Source: Alloprevotella sp. oral taxon 473 str. F0040 (GTDB taxonomy: Bacteria > Bacteroidota > Bacteroidia > Bacteroidales > Bacteroidaceae). From it: a DNA stretch of 39,593 nucleotides. Of the stretch, positions 21,580 to 27,946 are shown one piece after another. The stretch is from NCBI RefSeq assembly GCF_000318095.2, contig NZ_KB290714.1:99318-138910 (forward strand), given 5' to 3'. The stretch's first letter is position 1, and each line of letters starts with the position of its first letter. The position numbers and the translations under genes are program-made. The notes below the pieces were generated by a model. The model was not told the origin of the DNA and searched no databases. It saw only the letters and a program-made list of their open reading frames with translations.

Positions 21580-22671
21580 ATGAAAAATCCTCTTCGCGGA
21601 CTGCTCCTTCTGTTGGTAGCAGTTTGTTGCATCGCTTGTCGCAGCAACACTTCCGCCACTTCTGACACAAATTCTTCTCAAACTATGAACAAGACTGCAA
21701 CTCTCTATTTCGCTGGTGGCTGTTTTTGGGGCACCGAGCACTATTTCAAGCAAATCCGTGGCGTTCTCTCCACCAAAGTGGGCTATGCCAATGGCAACAT
21801 TGAGCATCCCACCTACGAACAAGTATGCTCCAAAACCACAGGCTTTGCCGAAGCTGTGGAAGTGACTTACAATCCTGAGATACTTCCACTCACACTCCTC
21901 GTGCAACTCTATTTCCGTAGCATCGATCCCACAAGTGTCAATCGCCAAGGAGGTGACATCGGCACGCAATATCGCACCGGCATCTACTACAAGGATGCAG
22001 ACGTGCGCCCCTTCCTCATTGCCGAACGTACCAAGTTGGCACAAGCTATCGGTAAAAATGTGGCAGTAGAAATCGAACCTTTGCGCAATTTCTATGCAGC
22101 TGAGGACTACCACCAAGACTATTTGGACAAGAATCCTGGTGGTTATTGCCACGTGTCTCCTGCACTCTTTGCCGAAGCACGCAAAGCCAATGCCGACACC
22201 ACGCAGCGCAAGTATGAACGTCCCTCCACAGATACGCTCAAATCTAAGCTCACCGAAATCCAATATCAAGTCACGCAAAACGCTGCTACCGAACGTCCCT
22301 TCACCAATGAGTATGATCACGAGTTTCGTCCTGGCATCTATGTAGACATCACCACGGGCGAACCCCTCTTCCTCTCTACCGACAAGTTCGATTCAGGTTG
22401 TGGATGGCCAGCTTTTTCCAAACCCATTGATGCACACCTATTGAAGAACATCAAAGACACCTCCCACGGCATGCAGCGCATCGAGGTGCGTAGCAACAAG
22501 GGCAATGCTCACCTCGGTCATGTCTTCAACGATGGCCCCAAGGAAAAGGGTGGTTTGCGCTATTGCATCAACAGTGCTTCTCTCCGCTTCATCCCTCAAG
22601 CTGAGATGGAAAAACAAGGTTATGGTGCCTATCTCCCCTTGTTGGAAACACCCAAGGCTGAGCTGCACTAA
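21580..22671 (+). CDS. msrAB: Bifunctional methionine sulfoxide reductase MsrA-MsrB, lipoprotein form
   Basis: This 363-residue fusion protein repairs oxidised methionine (S- and R-sulfoxides). The N-terminus has a lipoprotein signal ([13 protein letters not shown], Cys near residue 20) and a Ser/Thr-rich linker, so it should act outside the cytosol, tethered to a membrane. The MsrA domain (about 42-195) carries the catalytic GGCFWG and the YHQDYL and PGGYCHV segments. The MsrB domain (about 220-350) carries [16 protein letters not shown] and the catalytic Cys in [11 protein letters not shown]. The usual MsrB zinc CxxC pairs are absent ([13 protein letters not shown]), so it is the zinc-free type seen in fused MsrAB enzymes. 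It is the last chromosomal-type gene before the accessory island. Confidence 0.95.
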
Positions 22672-22712: not shown

Positions 22713-23642
22713 TTACATAAACCCTTCTATAAATTTGCTCATCTTATCAATGCACCGCTTCTTTTGCTGCATATTGGGATGTACATACAAGTTGAGCGTT
22801 GTTGAAACATTGGAATGTCCCAAAATGCTACTCACCGTCTTATAGTCGCATTGGCTCTCGATGCATCGTGTAGCAAAAGTGTGTCGAAGCCCATGAAACA
22901 CGATAGAATCTATTTTAAGTCTTTTCAATAGTCTGCTGAAATAGTCACGATAACTGCGCGGGTCAGTGGCGTAAACTGATGTTCCCACCACATACGGTGT
23001 AGTAGATTGTTTTTTCACGATACTAAGCACCTCAAAAAGAGATTTAGATATGGGAATCTCTCGAAATGAGTTTTTAGTTTTGGGAGTAGAAAACACACGT
23101 TCAGTAGCACCTATATCACTATTGTAGATTCGTCCCACAGTATGGCACACTCGGATAATTCTGTGAGTTAAGTCCACATCAGCCCATTCCAAGGCACAGA
23201 CCTCACCTATTCTCATGCCTGTGCAGAGTGCAAGATAAACCCCTATGTTTCTAACAGTGGGATGATTTGCAATGTGTATCATCAGTTTGCGCTGATGATG
23301 AAGCGAGAGGACAGGCAACTTATGACCATTCTCCGTAGTGGGATAGTCTAGTTGCCAGTCCTCTCGTTCACATAGATGCAAGCGTGCACCATATTTTACA
23401 ACAGCGCGCAACACAGCTATGATGTCTCGAACTGTCTTTTTGGCCAATCCAGCCTTGATTTTATCAATGATAAAACACTGTACATCAGACTCCTCAATTC
23501 GTGTCATTTGTCCAAAGCGAGGAGTCAGATGTGTGCGAAGAGTGAGCCGATAAGCGCATAGCGTTGAATACTTTACAATAGCTTGCTTGCTTTCACTCCA
23601 TAATTGAGCAATTTCTTGAAACGTTTTCTGCATCTTGTACAT
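22713..23642 (-). CDS. Tyrosine recombinase/integrase
   Basis: This 309-residue site-specific recombinase has an N-terminal SAM-like core-binding domain (about residues 5-90) and a C-terminal catalytic domain with all conserved residues. These are Arg144 (TGMRIGEVCALEW), a Lys in TPKTKNSFREIP (188 or 190), His250-x-x-Arg253 (HGLRHTFATRC), His276 (LGHSNVSTTLNLY) and the nucleophile Tyr286. It lacks the long N-terminal arm-binding domain of Bacteroidetes conjugative-element integrases and is of a size compatible with DNA invertases. It sits at the downstream end of the island, 60 bases after the DUF262-HNH gene. I infer it is the best candidate to recombine the methyltransferase cassettes; it could equally be the integrase that brought the island in. 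No Shine-Dalgarno sequence is seen, which is usual here. Confidence 0.92.
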   Translation of the reverse strand: MYKMQKTFQEIAQLWSESKQAIVKYSTLCAYRLTLRTHLTPRFGQMTRIEESDVQCFIIDKIKAGLAKKTVRDIIAVLRAVVKYGARLHLCEREDWQLDYPTTENGHKLPVLSLHHQRKLMIHIANHPTVRNIGVYLALCTGMRIGEVCALEWADVDLTHRIIRVCHTVGRIYNSDIGATERVFSTPKTKNSFREIPISKSLFEVLSIVKKQSTTPYVVGTSVYATDPRSYRDYFSRLLKRLKIDSIVFHGLRHTFATRCIESQCDYKTVSSILGHSNVSTTLNLYVHPNMQQKKRCIDKMSKFIEGFM

Positions 23643-23702: not shown

Positions 23703-24875
23703 CTATTTATTGCCTTTTGCGCGGTTGTGCGATTTGCAGAGCATCTCACAATTGTCTAGTGTCGTTGCTCCTCCTTTGCTCCATGCTGTCACATGATCAG
23801 CATCCATTTCATTGATTTTGTAGATGCGAGTGCGGTTGTTGTTATCGCCAATGGCACATAGAGGGCAATTAGACACACCTTCTATTTGCGCTTTCTCAGT
23901 TTGTCGTTTGAAGGCCGCTTTTTTGTCTTTATCGTCAAAGAAGCGTACATCGAGCAAAGCGTGTTGTTGTTCACCTCCCAGCACATACTCATAGATGTTG
24001 CGTGAGCATCGCACAGCATCATCCTCAAGCAGAGTATTTACTCGTTCGGTGATGTGCTCAATGCTGTAGGGTGTGGTGTGATAAGTTTCATAGAGTCTGC
24101 CCCATTCAATGCCGCACATATTGTTTTCAACCATAGTAAAAGTGGTAGATACCCAATCGATGACCGAACGAAAGTAATTTTCAAGTTCGGTAATTTGAGT
24201 GTCGTGTCTGTGCATACTCATATAAGCATCCACCGTCATTCCCCGACTAGCGCATACCCATTCCAGTGCCACTCTCAGCACTTCTTGTCGCTTCACGTCG
24301 CCTTTTACATAGTGTCCCCACTTATGTATTTCAGCATTTTGTGAATTGCTAAACACTCTTTTGGCAGCATTCACAAAAGTGCCCGAATAGATGGCATTGC
24401 GGAGTTCTTGTTCGTTGAGAGGTACACCTACAATGTTGATGGTCTTAAACCATTCCTTAACTTCTTTTTCTTCTCCTTGGCACACATAGACCAAGAGTTT
24501 AGACCCCAATATAAGTTTTTGTTGTTCTTCGGGAAGTCCAGAGAAGTATTGAATATTTCCGTTTTCGTCTTCAATAGAAAATTTTCCAGTGACAAATCTT
24601 CCAATAGAGGTGATGCGTTGTTGTCCGTCCAGCACCTCATATTGTCCATTGGCAGTAAGGTTGAAATAAATCAATCCTAATGGATATCTATTGAGAATAG
24701 ACTCAATGACAGCCACATCTTTTTTGCCGTCATTGTAGATATAGTGTCTTTGATATTCTGGTTGAATGGTTAGTTTGCCGTCCAGTCCAAAGAGTCCCTT
24801 CCCTTCTAGTTCATTATATACAAATCCTTTGCAGATGTCTGCAACTGTCCATTCGATATGTAATTCTGTTATCAT
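23703..24875 (-). CDS. DUF262 domain protein with C-terminal HNH nuclease
   Basis: This 390-residue protein has an N-terminal DUF262 (ParB/GmrS-like) domain with IQPEYQR (38-43) and the hallmark DGQQR (83-87, [13 protein letters not shown]). The C-terminal HNH zinc nuclease has Cys337-x-x-Cys340, DADH at 358-361 and Cys376-x3-Cys380 with His383 and Asn384. In characterised relatives such as GmrSD, SspE and BrxU, DUF262 couples NTP binding to cutting of modified or foreign DNA. It therefore looks like an anti-phage nuclease, possibly the restriction partner of the methyltransferase encoded upstream. Its start lies only 22 bases from the inverted cassette head, so its 5' flank would change if that segment flips. 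It is visibly richer in A+T than the flanking chromosomal genes. The pairing is an inference. Confidence 0.88.
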
Positions 24876-24897: not shown

Positions 24898-25095
24898 GTT
24901 GAAATCTTAGGGATGTGTGAGAATGAAGACTTATACCAATTAAAGACAAGAGTTTATACAACTCAAGAATGTAAACAAGCCTATCTAAACAAATTTGGTA
25001 AAGTTGGAACCTATGACCTCAATGCAAGTGGGGTTGTTATAAGGGGAGGGATTCAAGAGAAAGTTTACCAACGTATATTGATTAAATCCACTTGA
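24898..25095 (+). pseudogene. Silent methyltransferase C-terminal cassette C4 (inverted)
   Basis: This is a 65-codon open stretch on the plus strand, opposite to the methyltransferase. It begins VEILGMCENEDLYQL and ends VYQRILIKST. The head TTGAAATCTTAGGG (24899-24912) is an inverted copy of the expressed junction at 25513-25526, and the tail keeps RILIK. The middle is unlike the other cassettes. There is no start codon other than an unlikely TTG at 24895 and no ribosome-binding context, so it should be silent as drawn. Inversion between 24899 and 25526 would place it in frame after residue 317 of the methyltransferase. Tail-to-tail with C3 it overlaps by 14 bases. Confidence 0.75.
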
Positions 25096-25303
25096 TAAGT
25101 ATCCGTGCATAAACTTGAGTATAATATCTCCCATCTACAATATAGTAGGTAGTATCAAGAGGAGGTTCTGCATGAAGTAAAACTGCGCCATCATTAAGTT
25201 TTGTGACTTTCGATTCTTTCCCTTTTTTATCAATTTGGACTTGCTCGGGATATATTTTAGAAGCACTACCAAACCAAGTTTTTGTAATCCCTAAGATTTC
25301 AAA
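25082..25303 (-). pseudogene. Silent methyltransferase C-terminal cassette C3
   Basis: This is a 73-residue open stretch in the same orientation as the methyltransferase. It begins FEILGITKTWFGSASKIYP and ends YAREL-like as YARILIKWI. The head CCTAAGATTTCAAAT (read on the plus strand, 25290-25304) is identical to the expressed junction. The interior, with KKGKESKVTKLNDGAVLL, is unrelated to C1. The frame extends a few codons upstream but lacks an ATG, so it is not an independent gene. It fits a stored alternative C-terminus. Its last bases overlap the tail of C4 on the other strand, where a quasi-palindrome (25073-25106) encodes RILIK both ways. Confidence 0.75.
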
Positions 25304-25392
25304 TGACGAATAAGAATGCGAAAGTAAGGACAAGCACCTTTAATACATAAATCCTTTTCGTCATTACCTTTTCTGAACCTTAAGATTTCAAA
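25291..25392 (-). pseudogene. Short silent C-terminal cassette C2
   Basis: Directly after the methyltransferase stop, shifting frame gives FEILRFRKGNDEKDLCIK and a tail ending RILIRHLKS, the same last nine residues as the expressed protein. It has 33 codons plus TAG. The head reads TTTGAAATCTTAAGG, one extra A relative to the other heads, so FEILG becomes FEILR. The first bases overlap the methyltransferase tail and the last bases overlap the head of C3, each in a different frame. It is shorter than the other cassettes and may be a decayed remnant. Confidence 0.65.
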
Positions 25393-25409
25393 TGACGAAT
25401 AAGAATACG
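25292..25409 (-). repeat. 29-bp direct repeats at cassette junctions
   Basis: The 29 bases at 25292-25320 and 25381-25409 are identical except for one position (GCG versus ACG at the end). They begin TAAGATTTCAAATGACG on the plus strand. Each copy encodes RILIRHLKS plus stop in one frame; the copy at 25292 also encodes the HSYSSFEILG head of C3 in another. The shared TTTGAAATCTTAGG core recurs at 25513-25526 inside the methyltransferase and, inverted, at 24899-24911. Confidence 0.9.
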
Positions 25410-26477
25410 TTTATAGATAAAGTGACCTTTTATCAACGGAGCTCCTCCTTTGTCTTTGAATCCTAAAAAATGATAGATGTTGCTTTCGTTTCCTATATTA
25501 GCATCTGCTCGGCCTAAGATTTCAAATTGCTCCGGACAATACTTATCTAAAAAAGAGATAGGTACTCCCATAACTCCTTCGTAGTCGGAGGGGATAGCAT
25601 CGGTGTAAGACACTTCTATGGCATCATAGTTGTCATAGTGGTCGTATGCCTCCTTGTCCTTCATCTTTTTGTTGTAGCGCAAGTTGTCTTCCATGGTCAT
25701 TAAAGCCAATGGCTGGTGACGACGACCGTGTTCTAAGTTTGTAAACCATCGAACACCTTTAACTCTTATATACTTGTTACCAAATTCATCAATACGCCAT
25801 CCTGCCGCTGTTATAGGATATTCCGGTGGAATTTTGAACTCACGATCTCCGCTGTGTATTGTCGCCCCCAGCCACATTTTATTCTCTTTGATAAGCGGAA
25901 ATACCTCTTTGTAGGTGATAGCATTCATATTCCCAATAATGGCAAATTGTTTGTTGCCTTGCACTATCCATGCAAGGAATTCGCGGAAAAGAGAAAAAGG
26001 GGGATTGGTGATGATGATGTCTGCTTCATCGCGCAAGGTAGTCACCTCGGGGCTACGAAAATCGCCAGTACCTTCGAGATAGTCCCATTCAAGGTCGTCT
26101 ATATCGATGCGACCATTTTGATTAGTATCTCCAGTGAGTGTGAATATCTTGCCACAGATTGCCGTCTTTTCGGCACTGAAACGAGGGTCTTCGCTCTCAA
26201 AAAGTGTGGGTTGCCAATCGCTTTTATAGTTCTTGCTTTCTTGAGCAAAACTAGTACTAATGAGCTTTTTGAGTCCGAGTTCTTCAAACTTCGCCACAAA
26301 ATAGCGAGTGAAATTGCTCCACTCTGGGTCGTCACATGGCAACAATACCGTCTTACCTCGAAATACATTAGGGTTGTATTCTAGATAAGCGTTGATTTCT
26401 GCTTCTATGTCGTGGTATTGAGTATAAAACTCATCATTCTTTGCGGCTTTGGCTTCTTTAAGGTTTCTATTGGCCAT
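25380..26477 (-). CDS. EcoRI-family adenine-specific DNA methyltransferase
   Basis: This 365-residue protein opens with KEAKAAKNDEFYTQYHDIEAEI and TVLLPCDDPEWSNFTRYF, characteristic of the EcoRI methylase family (N6-adenine). The catalytic motif is NPPF at 158-161 (ADIIITNPPFSLFREF). The C-terminal region has GVMGVPISFLDKYCPEQFEILG, after which residues 318-365 form a separable segment (cassette C1) ending RILIRHLKS. It should methylate adenine in an unknown short site. No EcoRI-like endonuclease is next to it; the DUF262-HNH protein downstream is the only nuclease candidate. The start is ATG at 26477, 24 bases after a TATCTTTG. Its body is AT-rich compared with neighbouring chromosomal genes, consistent with transfer. 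Alternative C-termini lie immediately downstream. Confidence 0.92.
   Translation of the reverse strand: MANRNLKEAKAAKNDEFYTQYHDIEAEINAYLEYNPNVFRGKTVLLPCDDPEWSNFTRYFVAKFEELGLKKLISTSFAQESKNYKSDWQPTLFESEDPRFSAEKTAICGKIFTLTGDTNQNGRIDIDDLEWDYLEGTGDFRSPEVTTLRDEADIIITNPPFSLFREFLAWIVQGNKQFAIIGNMNAITYKEVFPLIKENKMWLGATIHSGDREFKIPPEYPITAAGWRIDEFGNKYIRVKGVRWFTNLEHGRRHQPLALMTMEDNLRYNKKMKDKEAYDHYDNYDAIEVSYTDAIPSDYEGVMGVPISFLDKYCPEQFEILGRADANIGNESNIYHFLGFKDKGGAPLIKGHFIYKRILIRHLKS
25513..25526 (-). repeat. Expressed cassette junction (proposed recombination core)
   Basis: TTTGAAATCTTAGG on the minus strand encodes Phe318-Glu-Ile-Leu-Gly of the methyltransferase. The same 14 bases recur in direct orientation at 25290-25303 (C3), with one insertion at the C2 head, and inverted at 24899-24911 (13 of 14). 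It marks the border between the constant methyltransferase body and the variable C-terminus. Confidence 0.75.
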
Positions 26478-26591: not shown

Positions 26592-26986
26592 CTCTCGCGC
26601 GTGCGTGGGCGCGCGCACCCTGCAATTTGCACTTTTTTGCTTTCACAACCTTCACAGAATCTCGAGTAAATAGCTTGTAGTAAATGAGTTATCTCTATTT
26701 TATAACATACATTTAGATTTTCAAGTCTAGAGGCGAGGAAAAAGGACAAGAAAGCGAGAAAAATATAGAAAAATGCTGGGAGAGTTTTGAAAAACTCTAG
26801 GAGATAATTCAAAAGATGTCGGAGATTTCACATGAAATCTCCGACTTTTTTAGGGAATAACTCCTTGATTTTAATAAGAAAAGAGAGAAAAGAAAAGGGC
26901 AGTCTGTGAAGGTTGTGAAAGCAAAAAGTGCAAAATCCCAGATATGCGCGCACGCGTGCGATTGCGCGACGCGCCCACGCGTGAGG
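26592..26986 (-). repeat. Interspersed repeat element B (complete, inverted relative to A)
   Basis: Arms at 26592-26657 (CTCTCGCGCG... CTTCACAG) and 26904-26986 (CTGTGAAGGTTGTGAAAGC... with an extended CG-rich end) flank an interior that is element A reversed. ATAACTCCTTGATTTTAAT (26857-26875) is an exact reverse complement of the A 19-mer and lies 28 bases from the arm, as in A. The hairpin GTCGGAGATTT-CACATG-AAATCTCCGAC (26818-26845) is a perfect 11-bp stem. The core-to-hairpin distance is 162 bases, as in A. Interior sequence has otherwise diverged strongly. Short open frames across it (26579-26812, 26871-27092) are judged spurious. Confidence 0.85.
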
Positions 26987-27403: not shown

Positions 27404-27946
27404 ATGCCTCAAAAACTACAAATCGAAGAGATGAATCGCCTAGACGTGGCGGCTTTCAAAGCAGCTGAGAAATTACCTCTCATCGTGGTGCTTGACAATG
27501 TGCGAAGCCTGCACAATGTGGGGAGCATCTTCCGCACGGCCGATGCTTTTCGACTGGCTGGGGTGTGGCTTTGTGGCATCACCGCTACTCCGCCTTCGGT
27601 AGAAATCCACAAGACGGCTCTTGGAGCAGAAGAATCGGTGGATTGGCGTTATTTTGCCACCACCGATGAAGCCATCGCCACGCTCAAAAAGGAGGGATAT
27701 GTCGTGGCCTCTGTGGAACAATGCCACCGTTCTACCCTACTCACCGATTTTCAACTTGATGACACACAGCGTTACGCGCTTGTGATGGGGCATGAAGTGC
27801 ACGGAGTGGCGCAAGAAGTGGTAGATGCTTCTGATCTCGTCATCGAAATTCCTCAAATGGGCACCAAACACTCTATGAATGTGAGTGTGGCTGCCGGAGT
27901 GGTGATATGGGAGTTTGTGCGCCAATGGCGCGCACTCGGACATTGA
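27404..27946 (+). CDS. TrmH/SpoU family RNA methyltransferase
   Basis: This 180-residue SPOUT-fold enzyme should transfer methyl from S-adenosylmethionine to a ribose 2'-OH of rRNA or tRNA. The three family motifs are LDNVRSLHNVGSIFRTADAF (motif 1, Asn and catalytic Arg), ALVMGHEVHGVAQEVV (motif 2) and IPQMGTKHSMNVSVAAGVVIWE (motif 3), which build the knotted SAM site. It lacks the extra N-terminal domain of RlmB, so it is the short form found widely in Bacteroidetes. The exact RNA target cannot be read from sequence. The ATG at 27404 follows the promoter and gives a typical start. Confidence 0.92.
   Translation: MPQKLQIEEMNRLDVAAFKAAEKLPLIVVLDNVRSLHNVGSIFRTADAFRLAGVWLCGITATPPSVEIHKTALGAEESVDWRYFATTDEAIATLKKEGYVVASVEQCHRSTLLTDFQLDDTQRYALVMGHEVHGVAQEVVDASDLVIEIPQMGTKHSMNVSVAAGVVIWEFVRQWRALGH

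Follow-up and report, generated by a model that had tools for sequence, protein, structure and literature searches.

A shufflon of the R64 pilV type consists of a constant N-terminal part, several C-terminal segments and short sites in both orientations, with the tyrosine recombinase Rci encoded next to it. A locus of this design, but with a methyltransferase as its cargo, lies in a 39,593-nucleotide (nt) stretch of Alloprevotella sp. oral taxon 473 str. F0040 (assembly GCF_000318095.2, contig NZ_KB290714.1, positions 99,318 to 138,910 of the forward strand), the whole of which is called the window and supplies the coordinates given below. It combines one constant part, alternative C-terminal segments and repeated sites in both orientations with genes for an EcoRI-family adenine methyltransferase, a DUF262-HNH nuclease and a tyrosine recombinase. 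Very probably the locus is a shufflon serving an adenine methyltransferase of one chain: it would exchange a piece of the enzyme's target-recognition region, and the accompanying nuclease probably depends on this methyltransferase.

Invertible hsdS loci are known in Bacteroides fragilis and elsewhere, several of them with adjoining recombinase genes, as described in the available text of PMC3090145, PMC7394358, PMC5903667 and PMC11892184. The B. fragilis shufflon, with its tyrosine integrase, and the streptococcal loci resemble the window's locus in that inversion between repeats within coding sequence swaps a DNA-recognition part, with the recombinase gene adjacent (available text of PMC3090145 and PMC7394358). 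The window's locus differs from them in that the C-terminus of a single-chain EcoRI-family methyltransferase would be swapped, the sites measure about 11-20 nt, the nuclease is of the DUF262-HNH kind, and the module is without HsdS or HsdR; in Pfam searches none of its three proteins matched PF01420 (HsdS), and the varied protein matched PF13651 alone. Target-recognition pieces of Helicobacter pylori methyltransferases also move between places and change methylomes, through recombination at flanking repeats between or within genes, and the available text of PMC3983042 mentions no cassette array with its own recombinase. The nuclease of the window shares an N-terminal DUF262 with the motif DGQQR and a C-terminal HNH with SspE and GmrSD/BrxU, nucleases that combine DUF262 with HNH or, as in the type IV restriction enzyme GmrSD, DUF1524. 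In the Ssp system, phosphorothioates made by Ssp proteins serve as the marks; that SspE obtains its licence from the DNA mark of its own host is described in the available text of PMC13251355. Unlike these proteins, it has an adenine methyltransferase as its partner, is shorter (390 amino acids) and has no DUF1524 match listed.

Pairs of a fixed-tail EcoRI-family methyltransferase and a DUF262-HNH nuclease contain the same two genes in the same order, but no cassettes were found in them and, in the 60 loci with enough sequence, no recombinase. An earlier note on this DNA, made from the letters and their reading frames, knew of no cassette array on an EcoRI-type methylase, and nothing to the contrary appeared among the literature matches listed, none of which describes such an array for a single-chain type II methyltransferase, of the EcoRI type or otherwise; a 2023 survey of gene-altering inversions, outside this coverage, could hold one. 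Switching by inversion being known for type I systems, an array on a single-chain EcoRI-type methyltransferase is apparently an undescribed variant, as judged from the literature searched.

The cassette array of the window

The methyltransferase gene (25380..26477, minus strand) encodes 365 amino acids in its current state, which ends in the tail C1, and the protein matches Pfam PF13651 over profile positions 1-344 of 345 (expectation value (E) 1.9e-132, 442 bits against a cut-off of 26.4) as well as PADLOC MTase_II (2.4e-98). The constant part, residues 1-317, occupies 25527-26477 on the minus strand and is followed in frame by the expressed cassette C1 (FEILGRADANIG...KRILIRHLKS*, 25380-25526, minus strand). 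Between it and the nuclease gene lie three silent cassettes, of which C2 (FEILRFRKGNDE...FRILIRHLKS*, 25291-25392, minus strand) and C3 (FEILGITKTWFG...ARILIKWI*, 25082-25303, minus strand) have the orientation of C1, while C4 (VEILGMCENEDL...QRILIKST*, 24898-25095, plus strand) is inverted. Each of the four stays in frame between a head and a tail that all have in common, and the tail codons of C1 and C2 overlap the head of the next cassette. The earlier note had proposed these coordinates, orientations and frames, all of which agreed on recheck.

Each cassette opens with the 13-base core TTGAAATCTTAGG, which is exact in three of the four copies: at the joint of methyltransferase and C1 (25513..25525, minus strand), at the head of C3 (25290..25302, minus strand) and, as the outer inverted site, at the head of C4 (24899..24911, plus strand). 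At the head of C2 the 11-mer TTGAAATCTTA (25381..25391, minus strand) is followed by AGG, one base off the core. The shared head proposed earlier needs a small correction: it is TTGAAATCTTAGG, spelled TTGAAATCTTAAGG in C2 and, with Val replacing Phe, GTTGAAATC in C4. The statement that the silent cassettes have no usable start codons has to be softened as well: mechanical TTG starts lie just before C4 and upstream of C3, and nothing suggests that they are used. The 11-mer TTGAAATCTTA occurs four times in the window, every time at a cassette head, against a mean of 0.03 in 100 dinucleotide shuffles, none of which reached four copies; in a first-order Markov simulation of the 629-base segment, one run in 1,000 gave some 11-mer with four copies. 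One extra copy of the 13-mer, on a different contig of the source genome, is taken as due to chance.

The tail types of the silent cassettes are found in use elsewhere. The C2 type is the sole tail seen on the methyltransferases of loci L010 and L023, the C3 type is expressed in G237, L149, L192 and L331, and the C4 type is expressed in G008, with 83% of its residues the same as in C4. The inversion between 24899 and 25526 proposed in the earlier note would give an in-frame C4 tail, and G008 contains such a methyltransferase. Five comparisons of the window's silent cassettes yielded ratios of nonsynonymous to synonymous divergence (dN/dS) of 0.08-0.13 (0.10 for C2, against a silent cassette of G131; 0.10-0.13 for C3; 0.08 for C4) at dS values of 1.2-2.0, near saturation, which points to purifying selection on these cassettes; across all 15 cassette comparisons the ratio was at most 0.20 in 12.

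These observations bear on the idea that the array of the source strain is a relic whose cassettes no longer move. The single state of the assembly, the imperfect C2 site and the frame-split recombinases of two related species would fit such a relic, whereas the window's three module genes are intact, its three silent cassettes have open frames and appear to be under selection, and three of its four sites keep the exact core, so that decay of this kind is quite unlikely. A simple ON/OFF switch, in which some orientations would yield a non-working methyltransferase, is highly improbable: the window's four cassettes and most others read as an open frame with the tail-end motif, although this motif is absent from one G131 cassette (IDIS...) and from the silent cassette of L331, and L193 offers a possible OFF state. 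In this locus, from Candidatus Bacteroides pullicola (L193:8950-8990), the head lacks one base, the one before TTGAAATCTTAGG, which leaves the methyltransferase with the end ...CPEQLKS*; mutation, faulty assembly or an OFF state could each account for this.

Inversion in relatives and linkage of the recombinase

The methyltransferase has a match in 31 of the 58 genomes of the genus and, at E up to 1e-100, in 56 of the 399 genomes of the family. Four further arrays (G237, G134, G412 and G131) were found in 25 newly scanned family loci, and the contig of another, G289, stops right at the head. The relative G008 has the window's gene order with one extra gene between array and nuclease, and two other cassettes lie inverted behind its expressed tail. 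In a set of named genomes, restricted to the best 80 of 577 confirmed loci, eight carry arrays: L143 (Porphyromonas circumdentaria), L144 (P. canoris), L149 (Bacteroides neonati), L193, L185 (the same as G412), L192, L197 and L221. Three more are the plasmid L331 and the contigs L254 and L257 of a viral collection, of which nine of 79 loci were examined (L255 being the same DNA as G008). Including the window and a Porphyromonas metagenome-assembled genome (MAG) with two contigs, there are 17 distinct array loci. The module recurs in Bacteroidota, and the methyltransferase/nuclease pair is present in records assigned to several phyla.

Inversion occurs in these relatives, whose segments are found both ways in otherwise near-identical DNA. 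The circular Phocaeicola massiliensis plasmid OY725995.1 (L331) matches G134 at 100% along the 1,035 nt that lead to the site and include it, and at 99.9% along 1,113 nt on the far side, while the 397 nt in between are inverted, at 98.0%. The Muribaculaceae Isolate-104 (L221) and the viral-collection contig L257 share their three cassettes but have the inner two in opposite orientation (384 nt at 96.4%), between flanks of 98.3 and 98.7% identity. In the Porphyromonas MAG SRR12203219_bin.8, the methyltransferase runs into an IDRYI cassette on contig C120, and contig C133 repeats the same 80 nt through the site without mismatch but continues with CTESEG, the IDRYI cassette standing inverted at the outer site; two strains would also explain these states, yet strains differing by the same inversion. 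Contigs also break at the site, as expected, in assemblies, from a mixture of orientations: the methyltransferase and nuclease contigs of G423 (a Tidjanibacter MAG) each finish with TTGAAATCTTAGG as their last 13 bases, the G289 contig stops one base past the core, and two contigs of G034 break inside the site, with TTTGAAAT on one side and GTTGAAAT on the other. The comparison of relatives, with flipped segments in near-identical loci and both states in one assembly, together with the linkage of the recombinase, bears out the earlier proposal of a C-terminus that changes through inversion at shared heads.

Cassettes also turn over between loci. G008, G131 and G134 have a backbone of about 3 kb in common at 97.7-98.9% and express different tails; a C/RNRG cassette type (88-90% identical) is expressed in G131 and lies silent and inverted in G008 and G134. 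L254 and G131 are 99.7% identical over 980 nt of the methyltransferase and have different cassette sets. Gain and loss of cassettes thus happen as well, by a route outside the mechanism proposed here. One module is carried by a plasmid, and that of G008 neighbours a mobilisation gene (PF01076).

The site itself is conserved at the DNA level in array loci. In the named set, the exact TTGAAATCTTAGG was present in nine of 11 array-type heads, these being seven full arrays, L197 and the hand-added L142, L147 and L181, whose contigs end in or near the site. The two variants, TTGAAATATTAGG in L197 and TTTCAATCTTAGG in L221, are each common to the other copies of their own locus, and in L257, the relative of L221, one site copy differs by a base. 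The remaining 69 heads mostly encode FEI[LIV] or similar, in 51 different 12-base spellings, and TTGAAATCTTA was found in one of them (L188).

The putative invertase is a tyrosine recombinase of 309 amino acids (22713..23642, minus strand; Pfam PF00589, 3.1e-27), which the earlier note had missed along with the nuclease. In alignment it retains R144, K188, H250, R253, H276 and Y286, which we take to be the catalytic six of tyrosine recombinases. Its linkage to arrays was scored, by matches with E up to 1e-30, in the 67 of the 80 named loci that have at least 2.5 kb behind the head, the 13 left out having too little sequence and including one with an array. A recombinase was present in all seven array loci and in none of the 60 array-less ones (Fisher p 1.1e-9). 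In a tree of 41 recombinases, which is rooted at the midpoint and does not order the ages of the groups, one fully supported branch separates 15 sequences from 26. Fourteen of the 15 are encoded within 6 kb of a methyltransferase or nuclease gene, among them G055, with a nuclease remnant and no methyltransferase, and G034, whose methyltransferase is on another contig; the remaining one, G128, comes from a contig of 5,115 bases that has neither gene. Of the other 26, 14 have an hsdS match no more than 4 kb away and one is near hsdM, as found with a single HsdS pair as query, and the hsdS-linked recombinases are related to that of the window, at 45-52% identity. Array-type recombinases with neither partner in the stretch covered lie at L122:2138-3061 and L256:6001-6903.

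We infer that the neighbouring recombinase is the enzyme that performs the inversion. Ordinary homologous recombination, gene conversion or another recombinase might instead rearrange the array, with the neighbouring recombinase only integrating the island. Tyrosine recombinases often integrate islands, and the G008 module adjoins the mobilisation gene and a second integrase. Near-identical modules also exchange cassettes, and recombination at the pneumococcal spnIII locus is, by the title of PMC6620402, said to be independent of all known site-specific recombinases. The common sites, however, span 11-20 nt, which is little for RecA, the linkage of recombinase and array is complete in the 67 loci, and related recombinases adjoin hsdS genes; this alternative is very unlikely.

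Target recognition and the nuclease

The motif TNPPF is without variation in 56 methyltransferase sequences, and the predicted activity of the window's enzyme, the one PF13651 protein of its source genome, is N6-adenine methylation. Across 76 systems the family is conserved to about residue 320 and hypervariable beyond, with a mean pair identity of 0.67 for residues 1-317 and of 0.13-0.16 for the windows of residues starting at 321 and 331. A second hypervariable segment, at about residues 200-236 (25770-25880, minus strand; window identities 0.30-0.43), may be the counterpart of the tail in a bipartite recognition region. Similarity of the tail and of this segment correlated at 0.09 over 2,850 pairs (r 0.08, p 0.06, given the core), and the two seem to reassort independently of each other. 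In a structure model of the protein (predicted local distance difference test, pLDDT, 84), built without the first Met and with its own residue numbers therefore one lower than those of the protein, the head forms a strand at residues 318-323 and the tail end another at 358-362, with the variable middle framed between them. Switching of the tail would probably alter DNA specificity.

Two further loci show peculiarities of the methyltransferase gene. A 40-nt AG repeat lies inside the variable tail of a one-tail relative from a Porphyromonas MAG (L172:1674-1713) and could switch the gene by slippage, and one locus (L198:8001-11432) contains two EcoRI-type methyltransferase matches with different tails.

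The nuclease gene (23703..24875, minus strand) encodes 390 amino acids that match PF03235 (DUF262/GmrSD_N, 2.4e-21) and, at the C-terminus and above the cut-off, the HNH family PF01844 (1.6e-07), as well as PADLOC REase_II over positions 17-372 of 372 (2e-93). With MTase_II and REase_II in one locus, the module has the composition of a type II restriction-modification system. The nuclease carries DGQQR from residue 83 and CPLC...DADH...N...LCKSHN; a Pfam profile search up to E 1 gave no DUF1524 match, HNH and DUF1524 being related kinds of nuclease. The first Foldseek hit was BrxU (7p9k), a weak one (E 3.6e-03, TM 0.23). Methyltransferase and nuclease were both complete in 78 of 86 loci (one locus counted twice) and on the same strand in all 78; in the array-less pairs (n=66) the nuclease follows the methyltransferase on the same strand, with a gap of at most 50 nt in 58. 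A Bro-N protein is encoded between array and nuclease at L032:10193-11044 (PADLOC PDC-S13, E 1e-138, with PADLOC run on L032 alone), and a Bro-N-like gene occupies this place in four modules (L032, L091, L092 and L093); the window's module is without one.

If the nuclease had a fixed site of its own, a change of methylation target would be lethal to the cell. We therefore infer, and may be wrong in this, that the nuclease depends on the methyltransferase, which would act either as its specificity part, in the manner of type I systems, or through a licensing mark, in the manner of SspE. It is also conceivable that the tail switches to tune a contact with the nuclease or another partner, not the DNA target. 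The cassettes compared for dN/dS give short tails of 33-75 residues, and the 200-236 segment could carry recognition alone; such a contact predicts co-variation of tail and nuclease, of which little was seen (partial Mantel r 0.07, p 0.09, given the core), and no 20-residue window of the nuclease falls below a mean pair identity of 0.41, that is, it has no hypervariable block, whereas tail types are many. Tuning of a partner contact is accordingly rather unlikely. Similarity of the nuclease and of the 200-236 segment, given the core, showed no significant association either (partial Mantel r -0.13, p 0.97).

According to the shufflon mechanism proposed here, the tyrosine recombinase would act on TTGAAATCTTAGG sites at the joint after residue 317 and at the cassette heads. 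Segments between opposed sites would invert and thereby bring another C-terminal cassette in frame with the constant part, and repeated inversions between nested sites could in principle place any of the four cassettes in the expressed position. The swapped tail would most likely belong to the target-recognition region, each inversion giving a new N6-adenine motif, and the nuclease would most likely be guided by the specificity of the methyltransferase or licensed by its mark, which would permit switching of the tail without suicide. A more specific version is offered tentatively: the methyltransferase alone may hold the specificity in two independently reassorting pieces, residues ~200-236 and the tail, and lend it to, or license, a site-blind DUF262-HNH nuclease, while a dedicated shufflon changes one of the pieces.

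Outside the module, msrAB (ending at 22671) lies on one side and a SpoU-type gene (starting at 27404) on the other. Upstream of the methyltransferase gene there is a perfect 25-nt inverted repeat (26634-26658 and 26903-26927, 244 nt apart); 84 near-copies of its core, many of them in inverted pairs, occur in the genome, and the repeat looks like part of a dispersed family resembling miniature inverted-repeat transposable elements.

Opposing evidence and significance

Several observations weigh against the shufflon reading. In the window, the C2 site departs from the core by one base and the assembly of the strain shows a single cassette state; among the cassette comparisons, three dN/dS values are high (0.41, 0.71 and 1.3), and several of the others have a dS close to saturation. 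G134 and OY725995.1 differ by one whole cassette, extra in G134, besides the inversion, and the silent cassette of the plasmid has lost the RLLI tail-end motif; backbones that are 98-99% identical carry different cassette sets. In P. circumdentaria (L143:10428-11191) and P. canoris (L144:10452-11368), both among the seven array loci of the linkage count, the recombinase gene is broken into two frames, and the L144 nuclease is likewise split (L144:9223-10391); both species are cultured, and their arrays remain. Beyond the 67 scored loci the linkage is not absolute: recombinases of the array group stand without a methyltransferase in G055, in G128/L253 (the 5.1-kb contig) and in L256 (viral collection, 62% identity, outside the tree), where no methyltransferase, nuclease or hsd match was found in 12.9 kb. 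The lack of significant co-variation between nuclease and tail is a negative result with few same-tail pairs, 150 of 2,850.

In type I systems that switch by inversion, one HsdS serves both methylation and cleavage. If the present reading is true, a type II-like methyltransferase of a single chain, equipped with a shufflon of its own, would extend phase-variable methylomes to a common family, and raises the testable question of how a nuclease gene persists beside a methyltransferase that changes its target. If the nuclease borrows the specificity of the methyltransferase, the EcoRI-methylase/DUF262-HNH pair would work unlike classical type II systems, and if the nuclease is site-blind, marking and defence would be re-addressed together, with no self-killing. 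The tails would represent a naturally occurring collection of recognition parts that can be exchanged on a single constant enzyme.

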